From a virus: 30,804 nucleotides of DNA. Under the pieces are notes generated by a model. The model worked only from the letters and a program-made list of their open reading frames with translations. It did no database searches and was not told the origin of the DNA. The DNA lies in the IMG/VR virus record IMGVR_UViG_3300037042_001813, positions 1-30,804 of that record. One strand, given 5' to 3'. The translations under genes and the position numbers were made by a program. The stretch's first letter is position 1. Each line of letters begins with the position of its first letter. This document shows positions 4,902 through 26,764 of the stretch, one piece after another.

Positions 4902-4978
4902 GTCGCCATAGCTCAGTAGGCAGAGCAGGTGTTTTGTAAACACCAGGTCGCAGGTTCGATTCCGTGCTGGCGGCTCCA
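4902..4978 (+). tRNA. tRNA-Thr (anticodon UGU)
   Basis: A full cloverleaf begins one nt after the portal stop. The acceptor stem is GTCGCCA/TGGCGGC (one G-U pair), with D-arm GCTC/GAGC, anticodon stem GGTGT/ACACC and loop TTTGTAA, so the anticodon TGT is at 4935-4937. The T-loop is TTCGATT, the discriminator T, and CCA is encoded. The T-stem GCAGG pairs with CCGTGC only if one G (4964) bulges out, so the gene is 77 nt including CCA. The bulge is unusual and may lower search scores. A phage-encoded tRNA here would supply UGU for ACA/ACG-type codons. Confidence 0.85.
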
Positions 4979-4982
4979 GTAT

Positions 4983-5082
4983 AGCGTAGTAGTCTAACGG
5001 TAGTGACGCGCTGGCAACTACGTGGATACGTTCACGTAGCCAGAACTGGCGAGATTCTGGTTCAACTCCAGACTATGCTCCA
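4983..5082 (+). tRNA. Atypical tRNA-like element, anticodon not assignable
   Basis: About 100 nt starting four nt after the tRNA-Thr and also ending in GCTCCA. A continuous acceptor plus T-stem helix can be drawn (AGCGTAG...TCTGG with CCAGA CTATGCT) with T-loop TTCAACT. A D-arm GTC/GAC has a loop containing GG. The centre is abnormal: CTGGC (5011-5015) can pair with GCCAG (5039-5043), but the intervening 23 nt contain a second perfect 7-bp inverted repeat CTACGTG/CACGTAG (5018-5024/5033-5039). That gives a long extended arm instead of a 7-nt anticodon loop. It may be a degenerate tRNA, a tRNA with a small insertion or a tRNA mimic. Confidence 0.5.
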
Positions 5083-6012: not shown

Positions 6013-7170
6013 ATGGAACTTACAGATGAGATGACCGCTGAAATAGCCGCGAAAGCAGTCGCGGAATATCAGGCAAAAGAGGACAAGAAAATCGTCAATC
6101 GCTTCACCCCTGGCGGGCAGGCAGAGGAAACCACGGGCTTCAAATCCCTGGGTGAACAGCTCCACGCTGTCATGCGCGCCAAGACCGGCGCCGGTGAAGA
6201 CCCCCGCTTGAAGGCCATCGTTGGTAACAGCGAAGGCGTCCCCGCGGACGGCGGCTTCCTGGTACAGACCGACTTCGCCACTCAACTACTGGAAAAGACC
6301 TTCCTGGCCAGCGACATCGTAAACAGGGTATTCCGCATCCCTATCTCAGCCAACAGCAACTCGCTGAAAATCCCGGCAGTGTCCGATGCCAACCGCGCTG
6401 ACGGCTCCCGCTTCGGCGGCATCCGGGCTTACTGGATGAACGAAGGCGGCTCCAAAACCGAGTCTAACCCGTCATTCAAACAGGTATCCCTGGAACTCAA
6501 GAAACTGATCGGCTACTGCACCGCCACAGATGAACTGTTGCAGGACGCCTCGGCTCTTGAAGCCTGGATACAGAAGGCATTTGCCGCTGAGTTTGACTTC
6601 AAACTGGCGGACGCCATCATCAACGGCGACGGCGCAGGCAAACCCCTCGGTATCCTCAACTCCGGCGCATTGGTGACTGTCACGGCTGAAACCGGCCAGG
6701 GCTCAAGCACCATCGTTGCAGAGAACATCATCAAAATGTGGGCATCCCGCTTCGGCCCCAACGCTGGAAACTACGTCTGGTTGATTAACCAGAACATCGA
6801 ACCTCAGCTCTACACTATGGGACTCGCAGTAGGCGCAGGCGGTATCGCCGTCTATATGCCCGCTGGCGGACTGTCCGGCGCACCTTACGGGACGCTCTTC
6901 GGACGCCCGGTAATCCCTTGCGAGCAGTGTGCGGCCCTCGGCACCGTAGGCGACATCATCCTGGCCGACCTCTCACAGTACGTAATGATCGACAAAGGCT
7001 CAATGGCGAGCGCTTCGAGCATCCACGTCAACTTCCAGACCGACCAGACCGCTTTCAGGTTCGTGTACCGCTGCGACGGGCAGCCTATGTGGGACACTTA
7101 CCTGACCCCGTATAAGGGCACGACCTCTTACCAGTCTCCTTTCGTGGCGCTTTCGTCCACAAGGACCTAA
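6013..7170 (+). CDS. Major capsid protein, HK97 fold
   Basis: A 385 aa capsid subunit. The N-terminal ~60 residues are helical and charged (delta domain-like). After EGVPADGGFLVQTDFATQLL comes the standard HK97-fold body with VSDANRADGSRFGGI, the E-loop region, and the LADLSQYVMIDKG and FQTDQTAFRFVYRCDGQP C-terminal P-domain motifs. ATG 6013 lies four nt after the protease stop with AGGAGG overlapping that gene's end. An upstream in-frame start at 5956 would overlap the protease without a good site. The region is GC-richer and codon-polished, as expected for the most expressed phage gene. Confidence 0.93.
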   Translation: MELTDEMTAEIAAKAVAEYQAKEDKKIVNRFTPGGQAEETTGFKSLGEQLHAVMRAKTGAGEDPRLKAIVGNSEGVPADGGFLVQTDFATQLLEKTFLASDIVNRVFRIPISANSNSLKIPAVSDANRADGSRFGGIRAYWMNEGGSKTESNPSFKQVSLELKKLIGYCTATDELLQDASALEAWIQKAFAAEFDFKLADAIINGDGAGKPLGILNSGALVTVTAETGQGSSTIVAENIIKMWASRFGPNAGNYVWLINQNIEPQLYTMGLAVGAGGIAVYMPAGGLSGAPYGTLFGRPVIPCEQCAALGTVGDIILADLSQYVMIDKGSMASASSIHVNFQTDQTAFRFVYRCDGQPMWDTYLTPYKGTTSYQSPFVALSSTRT

Positions 7171-24449: not shown

Positions 24450-25121
24450 ATGAAAGAGATACTCGATAACGTGGCTGACTTCATCAAGAAGTTGATGCAG
24501 CCGATGTTGACCTTTGTGGCCGTAGCTGTATTCTTTATGTACGCGGGGCGACAATGGTTTACAAGCGACCAGGTCTTTTGGGTAGTCGGAGGTATAATTT
24601 TATTCTGGTTCGGCTATACCGCGATAAAGAACTTCAATTACAAAGACGAATCCCCAAAAGCTGAGGGCCCCATTGTAACAGGCAGTAAAGTGTCAGGATG
24701 GGGCGCACCGTGCGATGATTACGACAACGAGACCGTCAATACTGGATTTTCACCAGTTGGCAACACGAATAACGGCGAAGTAGATAAAATTATCCAGGGG
24801 ATATTCGCTGACCTTAAAGCTGACGGCATCACGGCAGATGTCGCATCTGTATCGGCGCGGATCGTCAGCTACCTGGGCGCCCACGGCGATGAACTCGACT
24901 ATGCTGACCTATCTTCGCTCATCGATGCCGGCATAAATTACGCCAGCACCGCATACACCGAGGTCACTGGACTCAAGAAAGTACCCCTGACCTATGCCGA
25001 GGTAGCAGACTTTAACCGATGGTGGCGCAACAATAAAGCGGCTTGCAAGGCCCCGGCGGGACAGGCCAAAGCAGTCCTGATGACGCTTCGCGACCTTTTG
25101 AACCGCAAGGAAAACATCTAA
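24450..25121 (+). CDS. Two-TM holin-like membrane protein with C-terminal soluble domain
   Basis: A 223 aa protein with AGGAGG before ATG 24450. Two TM helices lie at about residues 18-33 (MLTFVAVAVFFMYA) and 42-60 (VFWVVGGIILFWFGYTAI), typical of small holins. A long soluble part follows: a flexible Gly/Asn linker, then helices (IIQGIFADLKADGITADVAS) and a basic end. Classic holins lack such a domain, so a holin fused to another function, or a membrane-anchored scaffold, is possible. It ends in TAATG with the next gene. Confidence 0.6.
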   Translation: MKEILDNVADFIKKLMQPMLTFVAVAVFFMYAGRQWFTSDQVFWVVGGIILFWFGYTAIKNFNYKDESPKAEGPIVTGSKVSGWGAPCDDYDNETVNTGFSPVGNTNNGEVDKIIQGIFADLKADGITADVASVSARIVSYLGAHGDELDYADLSSLIDAGINYASTAYTEVTGLKKVPLTYAEVADFNRWWRNNKAACKAPAGQAKAVLMTLRDLLNRKENI

Positions 25122-25684
25122 TGGAGGACGGCAAGGTGGACGGATTCGGCAAGTTCCTACTTTTCTGGACTGCCGCCTTTCTGTTGCTGATGCTTGTCCT
25201 TGCACTTAGCTGTATGCCCCCTGAGAAGCCTGAAAACGGCGCAATCTGCATGACCCCTGATATGTTGCAGAAAACAATGGATCAATGCTGCACAGAGGGA
25301 TACGCCAACGGATACGCTAAAGCAAAGGCAGAAGTTGTGCCACGGGCAGACGTTGAACTCAACCTGATAACAAAGGATAAACTGGCAGCCTTCTTGAAAC
25401 TCGACCAGTGTGACAGGTGTACATCGGCAGTCTATGAACCAGAGGATAGTTGCCTGGCTCGCGCCGAATGTCTAACCGCATCGGCAAGGTCATACGATTG
25501 GGATGCCTATGGCGTAGTGATGAACTTTGCCGAAGGCGGTTCCCACGCTGTCGTTGCCTTTCCTTTGAAAGATGGCACGATAGTCTACATCGAGCCGTGG
25601 TATGATACCATCGAAGTTGTCGAGGTTGGTAGAATATACCGGCCGGCACAGAAAACCATCGAGGAAATTGGGACATTCAAATAG
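25121..25684 (+). CDS. Membrane-anchored transglutaminase-like protein, possible lysis role
   Basis: A 187 aa protein starting in TAATG; an upstream in-frame start at 25043 would lie inside the previous gene. The N terminus has a TM or signal segment (residues 12-30) ending in LALSC31, a near-lipobox, so a lipoprotein anchor is possible. The C-terminal half has a Cys-rich part (DQCDRC, DSCLARAEC), then SHAVVAFPLKDGTIVYIEPW, a strand pattern with His and Glu as in transglutaminase-like cysteine peptidases. A cell-wall or envelope enzyme is inferred from fold pattern and the lysis cassette context. Confidence 0.55.
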   Translation: MEDGKVDGFGKFLLFWTAAFLLLMLVLALSCMPPEKPENGAICMTPDMLQKTMDQCCTEGYANGYAKAKAEVVPRADVELNLITKDKLAAFLKLDQCDRCTSAVYEPEDSCLARAECLTASARSYDWDAYGVVMNFAEGGSHAVVAFPLKDGTIVYIEPWYDTIEVVEVGRIYRPAQKTIEEIGTFK

Positions 25685-26090
25685 CCTTCTAATCTATGTC
25701 CTGGGAATAGAAGGCCCCGGACTGTATGGGTCGGGTCAATGCCCGGCAACGGACTGCGTGTCGGTTGGCTCTGACAACAGATGGTGGGCGACACGGGATA
25801 AGGAAAGCCAACTCCCCCGTGTTTTGAATCTGCCGTGAAAATACGCACCGCCACCACGGTCGTTAGACATGGCTGTTAGTAGCCGTTCGTGTCATAATTT
25901 GCGTATAGCGCAGTCCAACAACGCCGCCGATAGTATCAGCGGCTAATGGGCGCAGGAGTCTGCGCCGCCAGCGGGTAACGGAGACAGGACGCTGTGACTC
26001 ACGCCCCGCTAAGTGGAGGCCGCGATTGCCGCAGGGGGGTTGCCTCGGTGAGGAATAACATCGCCCCCTGTCGGCAGGCGGTTCCTCTAT
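25685..26090 (+). ncRNA. Large structured non-coding RNA candidate, family unassigned
   Basis: About 400 nt without credible coding frames but dense in perfect helices. 5' part: GTCGGG/CCCGGC (25730-25735/25742-25747), CGTGTC/GACACG (25757-25762/25790-25795) crossed by GTTGGCT/AGCCAAC (25764-25770/25806-25812), with ACACGGG/CCCGTGT (25791-25797/25816-25822) as an alternative. 3' part: GGCT/AGCC (25871), GCCGC/GCGGC with a triloop (25923-25943), GGCGCAG/CTGCGCC (25949-25966), AGCGGG/CCCGCT (25970-26010) and a rod of about 20 bp at 26016-26087. RNase P, tmRNA, SRP and group I/II intron motifs were not seen. Strand + is inferred from the neighbours. Confidence 0.6.
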
Positions 26091-26120
26091 CATCACAAAT
26101 TTTGATGTTAAACACTTTTG

Positions 26121-26210
26121 TATAATAACTTGTGACAAACTAATGACAAAACTCGCGCCAACTTGTATTTACCAGTTCAACCCGTGACAAATTGTAACGC
26201 TTTCCATAAT
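26121..26210 (+). promoter_or_regulatory. AT-rich regulatory stretch with phased GTGACAAA repeats
   Basis: After the RNA the sequence turns AT-rich. (G/A)TGACAAA occurs at 26132, 26143 and 26184; the first two are 11 bp apart and the third is 41 bp further, near whole helical turns. The first is part of the palindrome TTGTGACAA (26130-26138) and the third of the inverted repeat GTGACAAATTGTAAC (26184-26198). TATAAT at 26121-26126 and 26244-26249 are -10-like, but neither has a good -35. It is a probable operator region for the rightward genes; no other feature is visible up to 26365. Confidence 0.45.
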
Positions 26211-26365
26211 GTCACCACTTATCAACAAATGTTGACTGCGCCTTATAATGACTGAAAATAAGGCTGTAATGTTATATAAATGGACTAACGCTCATTATTT
26301 TAGACATCATTCGGGACATCGAATGGCGCATTACGTTCAAAATACAGAACATTTAATAGGACACT

Positions 26366-26764
26366 ATGAAAACAACAACATACATGGTTTTGGTATTTGC
26401 CTCTGTGCTTTTAATTTGCGTGGTCGCACTCCAAATGCCCTCACCCTTGACCGACTTCACAGCAGAGGACTGCGTATGGTGGCTTGAGTGGGACAAAGAT
26501 ATTCACGAAAGCTATCTATCGTTACCTGAAGGCGATACCGGAACTTATAAAAGCCATCAGCAATGGATAAGCGACTTCACGCAGATAATAGCCAGAATAA
26601 AGAAAGAGCCTTCCAAACTAACCAAAGATGAGTGCATACAGCTTTTGTATAAAGCACAGTCAACTCATGCCGGGGATAGCGCCACAGACTACAATACTGT
26701 CAACTGGAATAGTAAATGGTTCTTTGCCTACGAAAACATTATTAAATACATGAAAAGCCAATGA
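26366..26764 (+). CDS. Secreted or membrane-anchored small protein, unknown function
   Basis: A 132 aa protein with an N-terminal signal/TM segment (TYMVLVFASVLLICVVALQM) followed by an acidic, Trp-rich soluble domain (AEDCVWWLEWDKDIHESYLS, DYNTVNWNSKWFFAYENIIK). Two Cys outside the leader could form a disulfide. It is the first gene after the regulatory stretch and is ATGA-coupled to the next. Phage-encoded exported proteins near early genes can be superinfection or surface-modifying factors, but nothing here proves it. Confidence 0.6.
   Translation: MKTTTYMVLVFASVLLICVVALQMPSPLTDFTAEDCVWWLEWDKDIHESYLSLPEGDTGTYKSHQQWISDFTQIIARIKKEPSKLTKDECIQLLYKAQSTHAGDSATDYNTVNWNSKWFFAYENIIKYMKSQ

Follow-up and report, generated by a model that had tools for sequence, protein, structure and literature searches.

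A hairpin-rich intergenic island between late and early genes in a virus and its relatives, one of which carries an orphan abiF RNA

The junction and its structured region

Between the late and the early genes of the viral sequence analysed here (IMG/VR record IMGVR_UViG_3300037042_001813, 30,804 nt, hereafter the window), positions 25685-26090 were proposed in an initial annotation to form a large, highly structured non-coding RNA that could not be placed in any class by eye. Does such a structured region exist, is it a single RNA, and what could it do for the phage?

All genes named here lie on the + strand. The region opens at the UAG stop codon of a 187-aa late gene (25121-25684), which has no match in Pfam and PHROG searches and shares 99% identity with its counterpart in one contig (L009) and 75% in another (L008). 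Downstream lie an AT-rich control region (26109-26365), in which TGACAAA motifs recur and a TATAAT-like element is present, and the first gene of the next operon (26366-26764, 132 aa), which is without assigned function. The control region is partly common to L003, in a changed order. L003 (41.9 kb) and L002 (17.3 kb) are the close relatives found in IMG/VR through the neighbouring genes. Within 26109-26260, a DnaA-box-like TTATCAACA and the TGACAAA repeats, which are also present in L003 in shuffled order, look like operators or a replication origin.

Upstream of the late gene, 24450-25118 encodes a 223-aa protein with a TrbC-like N-terminus (a sub-cut-off match). Its last 33 residues are identical across three phages while the N-terminal parts are not, which hints at recombination or strong constraint; relatives of this gene were looked for in genome contigs and none were found. 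Elsewhere in the window, the large terminase (577-1860) has 51% identity over 89% of its length to that of the Methanosarcina virus MetMV, a match far exceeding every other among the named phages listed. The other window proteins tested against 30 kb of MetMV gave no match and, unlike the terminase, the capsid protein has bacterial phages as its nearest relatives. Just 3' of tRNA-Thr (4902-4978) lies a second tRNA-like sequence (4982-5073) with acceptor strands GCGTAGT/ACTATGC, a T-arm CTGGTTCAACTCCAG, a CCA end and an odd, enlarged anticodon arm. Neither ARAGORN nor Rfam calls it; it may be a tRNA carrying an insertion, or else a decoy.

The analysis confirms the structured region, which has its start at the late gene's stop codon. 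Counting perfect stems of at least 6 bp with at least four G/C pairs against 200 dinucleotide shuffles, 25685-26090 holds eight where the shuffles average 3.6 (6/200 reach eight); for stems of at least 7 bp the figures are five and 0.96, and none of the 200 shuffles reaches five. The excess of hairpins noticed earlier thus stands, with a count of eight by this rule instead of the nine or more first given. Folding energy reaches z = -4.2 for 25680-26100 (100 shuffles) and z = -2.9 for 25685-26090 (30 shuffles). When the window was scanned in segments of 406 nt, the top three of 153 all overlapped the region (z -4.1, -3.0 and -2.9). With 200-nt windows the region is no outlier, so that folding energy alone is only moderate evidence. 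As the initial annotation held, no credible gene occupies the region: L003, its sole close homologue, differs from it by a 1-nt indel (at 25917) and substitutions, L002 shares no frame with it, and no conserved protein frame exists between the three. The description of a structured, non-coding stretch at the late/early junction is therefore supported, and selection at the RNA level is seen in the relatives.

Directly 3' of the stop codon, at 25684-25722, two hairpins overlap and are mutually exclusive. Hairpin A pairs 25684-25691 with 25708-25715 (-14.2 kcal/mol in the window and in L003, -12.9 in L002), and hairpin B pairs 25698-25701 and 25703-25705 with 25715-25717 and 25719-25722 (-10.1 kcal/mol in the window, -14.8 in L003, -15.2 in L002). 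L002 retains both with compensating sequence changes: stem A reads GCCUUCC/GGAAGGC there and GCCUUCUA/UAGAAGGC in the window, and stem B reads GGUGCC/GGCACC as against GUCC(U)GGG/CCC(C)GGAC. A single change of C25718 to A turns stem B of L003 into a perfect 8-bp helix. A ribosome at the UAG would mask the 5' strand of A and free B. The earlier suggestion of a switch between two states thus gains some support at this 5' end. A pseudoknot of A and B was rejected, as no nucleotides are free to cross stem A and alternative hairpins fit better.

Further in, three perfect 7-bp helices interlock (25757-25763/25789-25795, 25764-25770/25806-25812 and 25791-25797/25816-25822). The first two correspond to the crossing helices already noticed at 25757-25812 and the third interlocks with both; together they may form a pseudoknot or alternative states. 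All three are identical in L003, which leaves no covariation to read. The minimum free energy fold then contains a GCCGC...GCGGC hairpin (25923-25943), in which the sole L003 substitution (25938) is unpaired, and the perfect 7-bp hairpin GGCGCAG-gagu-CUGCGCC (25949-25966), also returned by the stem search. A resemblance of the latter to the terminal hairpin of STnc40 was put down to chance (18.6 bits against a cut-off of 45). An AGCGGG/CCCGCU hairpin (25970-26010) follows, and homology with L003 stops shortly 3' of it. The last element, described earlier as a rod of about 20 bp, is indeed a helix at 26016-26087, but an interrupted one with its core at 26032-26038/26064-26070.

Relatives, module exchange and the R1 hairpin

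Only three related contigs were found (L003, L002 and L017), making four phages with the window. Further protein-based searches of IMG/VR yielded no close contigs beyond L002 and L003. A search with the exonuclease-like gene added L005-L007, and the upstream sequence read in L005 and L006 holds no such island. Compared by blastn with phages and plasmids, the region has no match apart from a chance one at E 0.4.

The island measures about 700 nt in L003 and about 320 nt in L002, with folding z-scores of -6.3 and -4.4. The window and L003 share 98.6% identity as far as about 26009 and diverge beyond, where some 300 nt of other hairpins in L003 take the place of the window's rod; GGCAGGCGGUUCCUC is common to the rod region (26016-26087) and L003. 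Another hairpin, CCUGGGGGUUUAAGG (the CCUGGGG hairpin), is 96% identical between L002 and L003, standing second in the former and near the end in the latter. Neighbouring phages thus keep the flanks while the hairpins between them are replaced, moved or lost. Since the relatives replace whole hairpins and do not keep the architecture, the region fits better as an array of modules swapped between fixed flanks than as one conserved large RNA.

One module could be followed further. R1 is a new 59-nt hairpin that recurs at a single gene junction in L003, L002 and L017, the last being part of a distant 100-kb phage. Between L002 and L003 sequence is conserved only in its apical and internal loops. 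A scan of IMG/VR with the pattern GAGG-NNN-Y-GAAACAU-N'N'N'-CGUCAC returned three contigs, which were these same three; in all of them the NNN triplets are complementary and the outer stems present. In the three-phage alignment, 9/15 pairs have both partners changed, standard pairs make up 97.8% of cells, and G-U pairs on the transcribed strand are among them. Not one of 500 shuffles reaches any of the pairing measures, and slid controls are 40-58% paired. By this covariation R1 is shown to be under RNA-level selection in the three phages. It is single-copy in each record. In L017 it follows a 261-aa gene, with one small gene between; this gene is homologous to the 223-aa gene of the window (BLASTP E 2e-14; hhalign 97.3%), which makes the junction the same as in the other phages.

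The window itself gives a weak R1 match at 26022-26085 (cmsearch 11.5 bits, E 0.003 in 801 bases and 0.49 in 129 kb). Of the full definition, namely the stem, the GGAG/GUCA internal loop and the YGAAACAU loop, only the outer stem is found there, and the sequence may be an R1 outer stem whose conserved apex was lost or replaced. Outside these phages, 14 exact occurrences of the pattern in genome contigs were discarded, 13 for lacking full inner-stem complementarity and one (L025) for lacking the outer stem. In about 1,190 bacterial genomes the R1 model gave two 29-bit matches that overlap open reading frames (an IF-2-like one in L044) and were judged to be chance; under strict filters, this sample holds no credible R1 beside bacterial toxin genes.

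An abiF RNA in the island of L002 and orphan copies in other phages

AbiF is a HEPN toxin and abiF RNA is its antitoxin. A permissive Rfam scan of the island in L002 found a match to abiF RNA (RF03085) at 6392-6429, with 31.2 bits and E 0.00067, ending 12 nt before R1. When RF03085 was searched in five phage records (241 kb), this match had E 8e-6 in its 17-kb contig, and the next match had 13 bits. Because 31.2 bits is below the family cut-off of 37, the score was calibrated on bacterial RF03085 matches drawn from 766 genomes of two phyla. Abi_2 genes accounted for 9/10 of the tested neighbours, including those of matches at 31.1, 33.6 and 34.8 bits, and bacterial matches at 31.1-36.3 bits (L070, L050, L052, L051, L049 and L061) adjoin Abi_2 genes. 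The copy in L002 keeps the core ACGCCUCU...GCG...ACCA, and, compared with bacterial copies, its stem has pairs in which both partners are changed. No Abi_2 gene (PF07751) lies on the contigs of the window, L002, L003, L017 or L006, L002 being a 17-kb fragment. Judged by the low-scoring true copies beside Abi_2, the kept core and the compensation in the stem, L002 6392-6429 is a genuine abiF RNA without a toxin gene on its 17-kb fragment contig. It is the only abiF-like RNA in the four island phages, and the window has no RF03085 match at E 10.

The RNA has a known activity in bacteria. RCd22 of C. difficile, an RNA with two abiF motifs, binds AbiF directly and so neutralises it both in cis and in trans; changes that break the stem abolish neutralisation and changes that restore it do not (PMC12373285).

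Short-query searches of named phages revealed further orphan abiF copies, all in unrelated phages. That of Mycobacterium phage Thibault scores 54.9 bits, above the cut-off, and lies inside a tRNA cluster; abiF, a sub-cut-off DUF3800-IV RNA and two tRNAs fall within 1.6 kb (L075 2501-4056), and may make up a comparable island of RNAs linked to defence. Aeromonas T7-like phages carry orphan copies of 50-51 bits; in L071 and L079 (2501-2537) the abiF RNA sits in a connector/scaffold gap of less than 100 nt, without an Abi_2 gene. Orphan copies are also present in Salicola phage CGphi29 (50.1 bits) and podovirus ctMEh928 (40.0), and sub-cut-off ones in Sulfurimonas, Enterococcus and Rhizobium phages. 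Eight abiF-bearing phage records searched whole contain no Abi_2. A blastn match in Bacillus phage SBSphiJ5 has the core letters but no cmscan abiF call, and was left uncounted. Loci sampled around the abiF RNAs of bacteria and of other phages contain no R1.

Possible roles and known parallels

The observations comprise the structure, the turnover of modules, selection on R1 at the RNA level and an orphan abiF RNA in L002. From this we infer, as the leading explanation but at somewhat less than an even chance, a late-transcribed island of exchangeable hairpins that work in trans, mimicking antitoxins or serving as decoys against RNA-dependent host defences. The island would lie towards the 3' end of the late transcript, from the last late gene to the early control region, and its modules would act in trans on defences relying on structured RNA. 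Like the abiF RNA of L002, R1 and the hairpins native to the window would belong to this type, with other targets. This explanation leads because the island of a sister phage contains an orphan antitoxin RNA. For the window, the function would be transferred from that relative, as the window lacks abiF and its R1 is decayed or lost. Against a decoy role, the window hairpins match no known RNA, the bacterial genomes sampled show no credible R1 next to a toxin gene, an abiF-like RNA occurs in just one of the four phages, the part of that phage outside the L002 fragment could carry an Abi_2 gene, and an operon junction is also the expected place for terminators and processing hairpins.

The main rival, possible though clearly short of probable, is a cis-acting 3'-UTR of the late operon, serving termination, antitermination, processing or nuclease protection, with a ribosome-controlled switch between hairpins A and B. 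It accounts for a region that starts at a stop codon just before the next control region, for the preservation of both mutually exclusive hairpins in L002, for a single-copy R1 that is syntenic in three phages, and for the GC-rich hairpin and short U-rich stretch that close the island in L002 and L003. However, no canonical terminator is found on the + strand within the region, 300-700 nt is long for a terminator, and neither the abiF RNA nor the exchange of modules is explained. The two roles could also hold together.

An element acting as DNA, such as a replication origin or a packaging or recombination site whose inverted repeats form single-stranded structures or cruciforms, appears unlikely. 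The two strands of the window region do fold about equally well (z -4.2 and -4.6), and the AT-rich repeats downstream resemble operators or an origin. However, the + strand of the L003 island gives the better fold (z -6.3 against -2.9), some of the pairing in R1 is maintained by G-U pairs on the transcribed strand while the sequence of its loop and internal loop is conserved, and abiF works as RNA (PMC12373285). Still less probable is GC-rich intergenic sequence that folds by chance into hairpins without function. The unremarkable 200-nt scan would suit it, as would the scarcity of homologues, which puts most window hairpins beyond a covariation test, but the stem excess, the 406-nt scan, the covariation of R1 and the abiF match in L002 with its stem changes all speak against it, and for R1 and abiF it is already disfavoured. 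Least probable of all is a single large, ornate RNA similar to GOLLD or ROOL, perhaps multimeric. The size of the region and the interlocking helices of the window would fit it, but there is no Rfam match, the architecture varies between window, L003 and L002, and island length ranges from about 120 to 700 nt.

Beyond the decoy role itself, we advance a broader and more speculative idea, which we think possible but rather doubtful: that phages possess intergenic RNA counter-defence islands which gather and swap antitoxin mimics and decoys, with R1 and some of the window hairpins mimicking antitoxin or guide RNAs of undescribed systems. If so, the unannotated intergenic RNA of virulent phages would serve as a store of counter-defences on a par with anti-CRISPR loci. 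Hairpins of the R1 kind would lead to RNA-dependent defences not yet discovered, and the islands could be mined for undescribed defence systems. The orphan abiF RNAs of T7-like, Enterococcus, Mycobacterium and Salicola phages offer direct and cheap test cases.

Among known systems, GOLLD, ROOL and HEARO RNAs had been mentioned as candidates. Rfam scans with 4,227 families (the window at the gathering cut-off, the region at E 10) give no match at or above the cut-off for the window region, L003 or L002, so that the region is none of these three. It is like GOLLD and ROOL in being a large structured phage-associated RNA, and unlike them in having no covariance-model match and no fixed architecture. 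The put sites of HK022, compared by description, are also hairpins in phage RNA at the boundary of an operon, but they lie in early leaders, whereas the hairpins here precede a probable early promoter. With bacterial abiF RNA the module of L002 has in common the core and a stem with compensating changes; it differs in lacking a toxin gene and in standing inside a hairpin island, which in the window has no abiF. Cyanophage S-CREM1 carries an abiF RNA within 830 bp of wcaG and manA RNAs, considered a possible sRNA (PMC9964418); it resembles L002 as a lytic phage with an orphan abiF RNA, but no decoy reading was proposed there. Phage PhiTE evades ToxIN with pseudo-ToxI, an RNA mimic of a type III antitoxin (PMC3475682), and like L002 it encodes a non-coding relative of a bacterial RNA antitoxin. 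PhiTE repeats one ToxI-like unit, whereas the islands described here set unlike modules of putative activity side by side.
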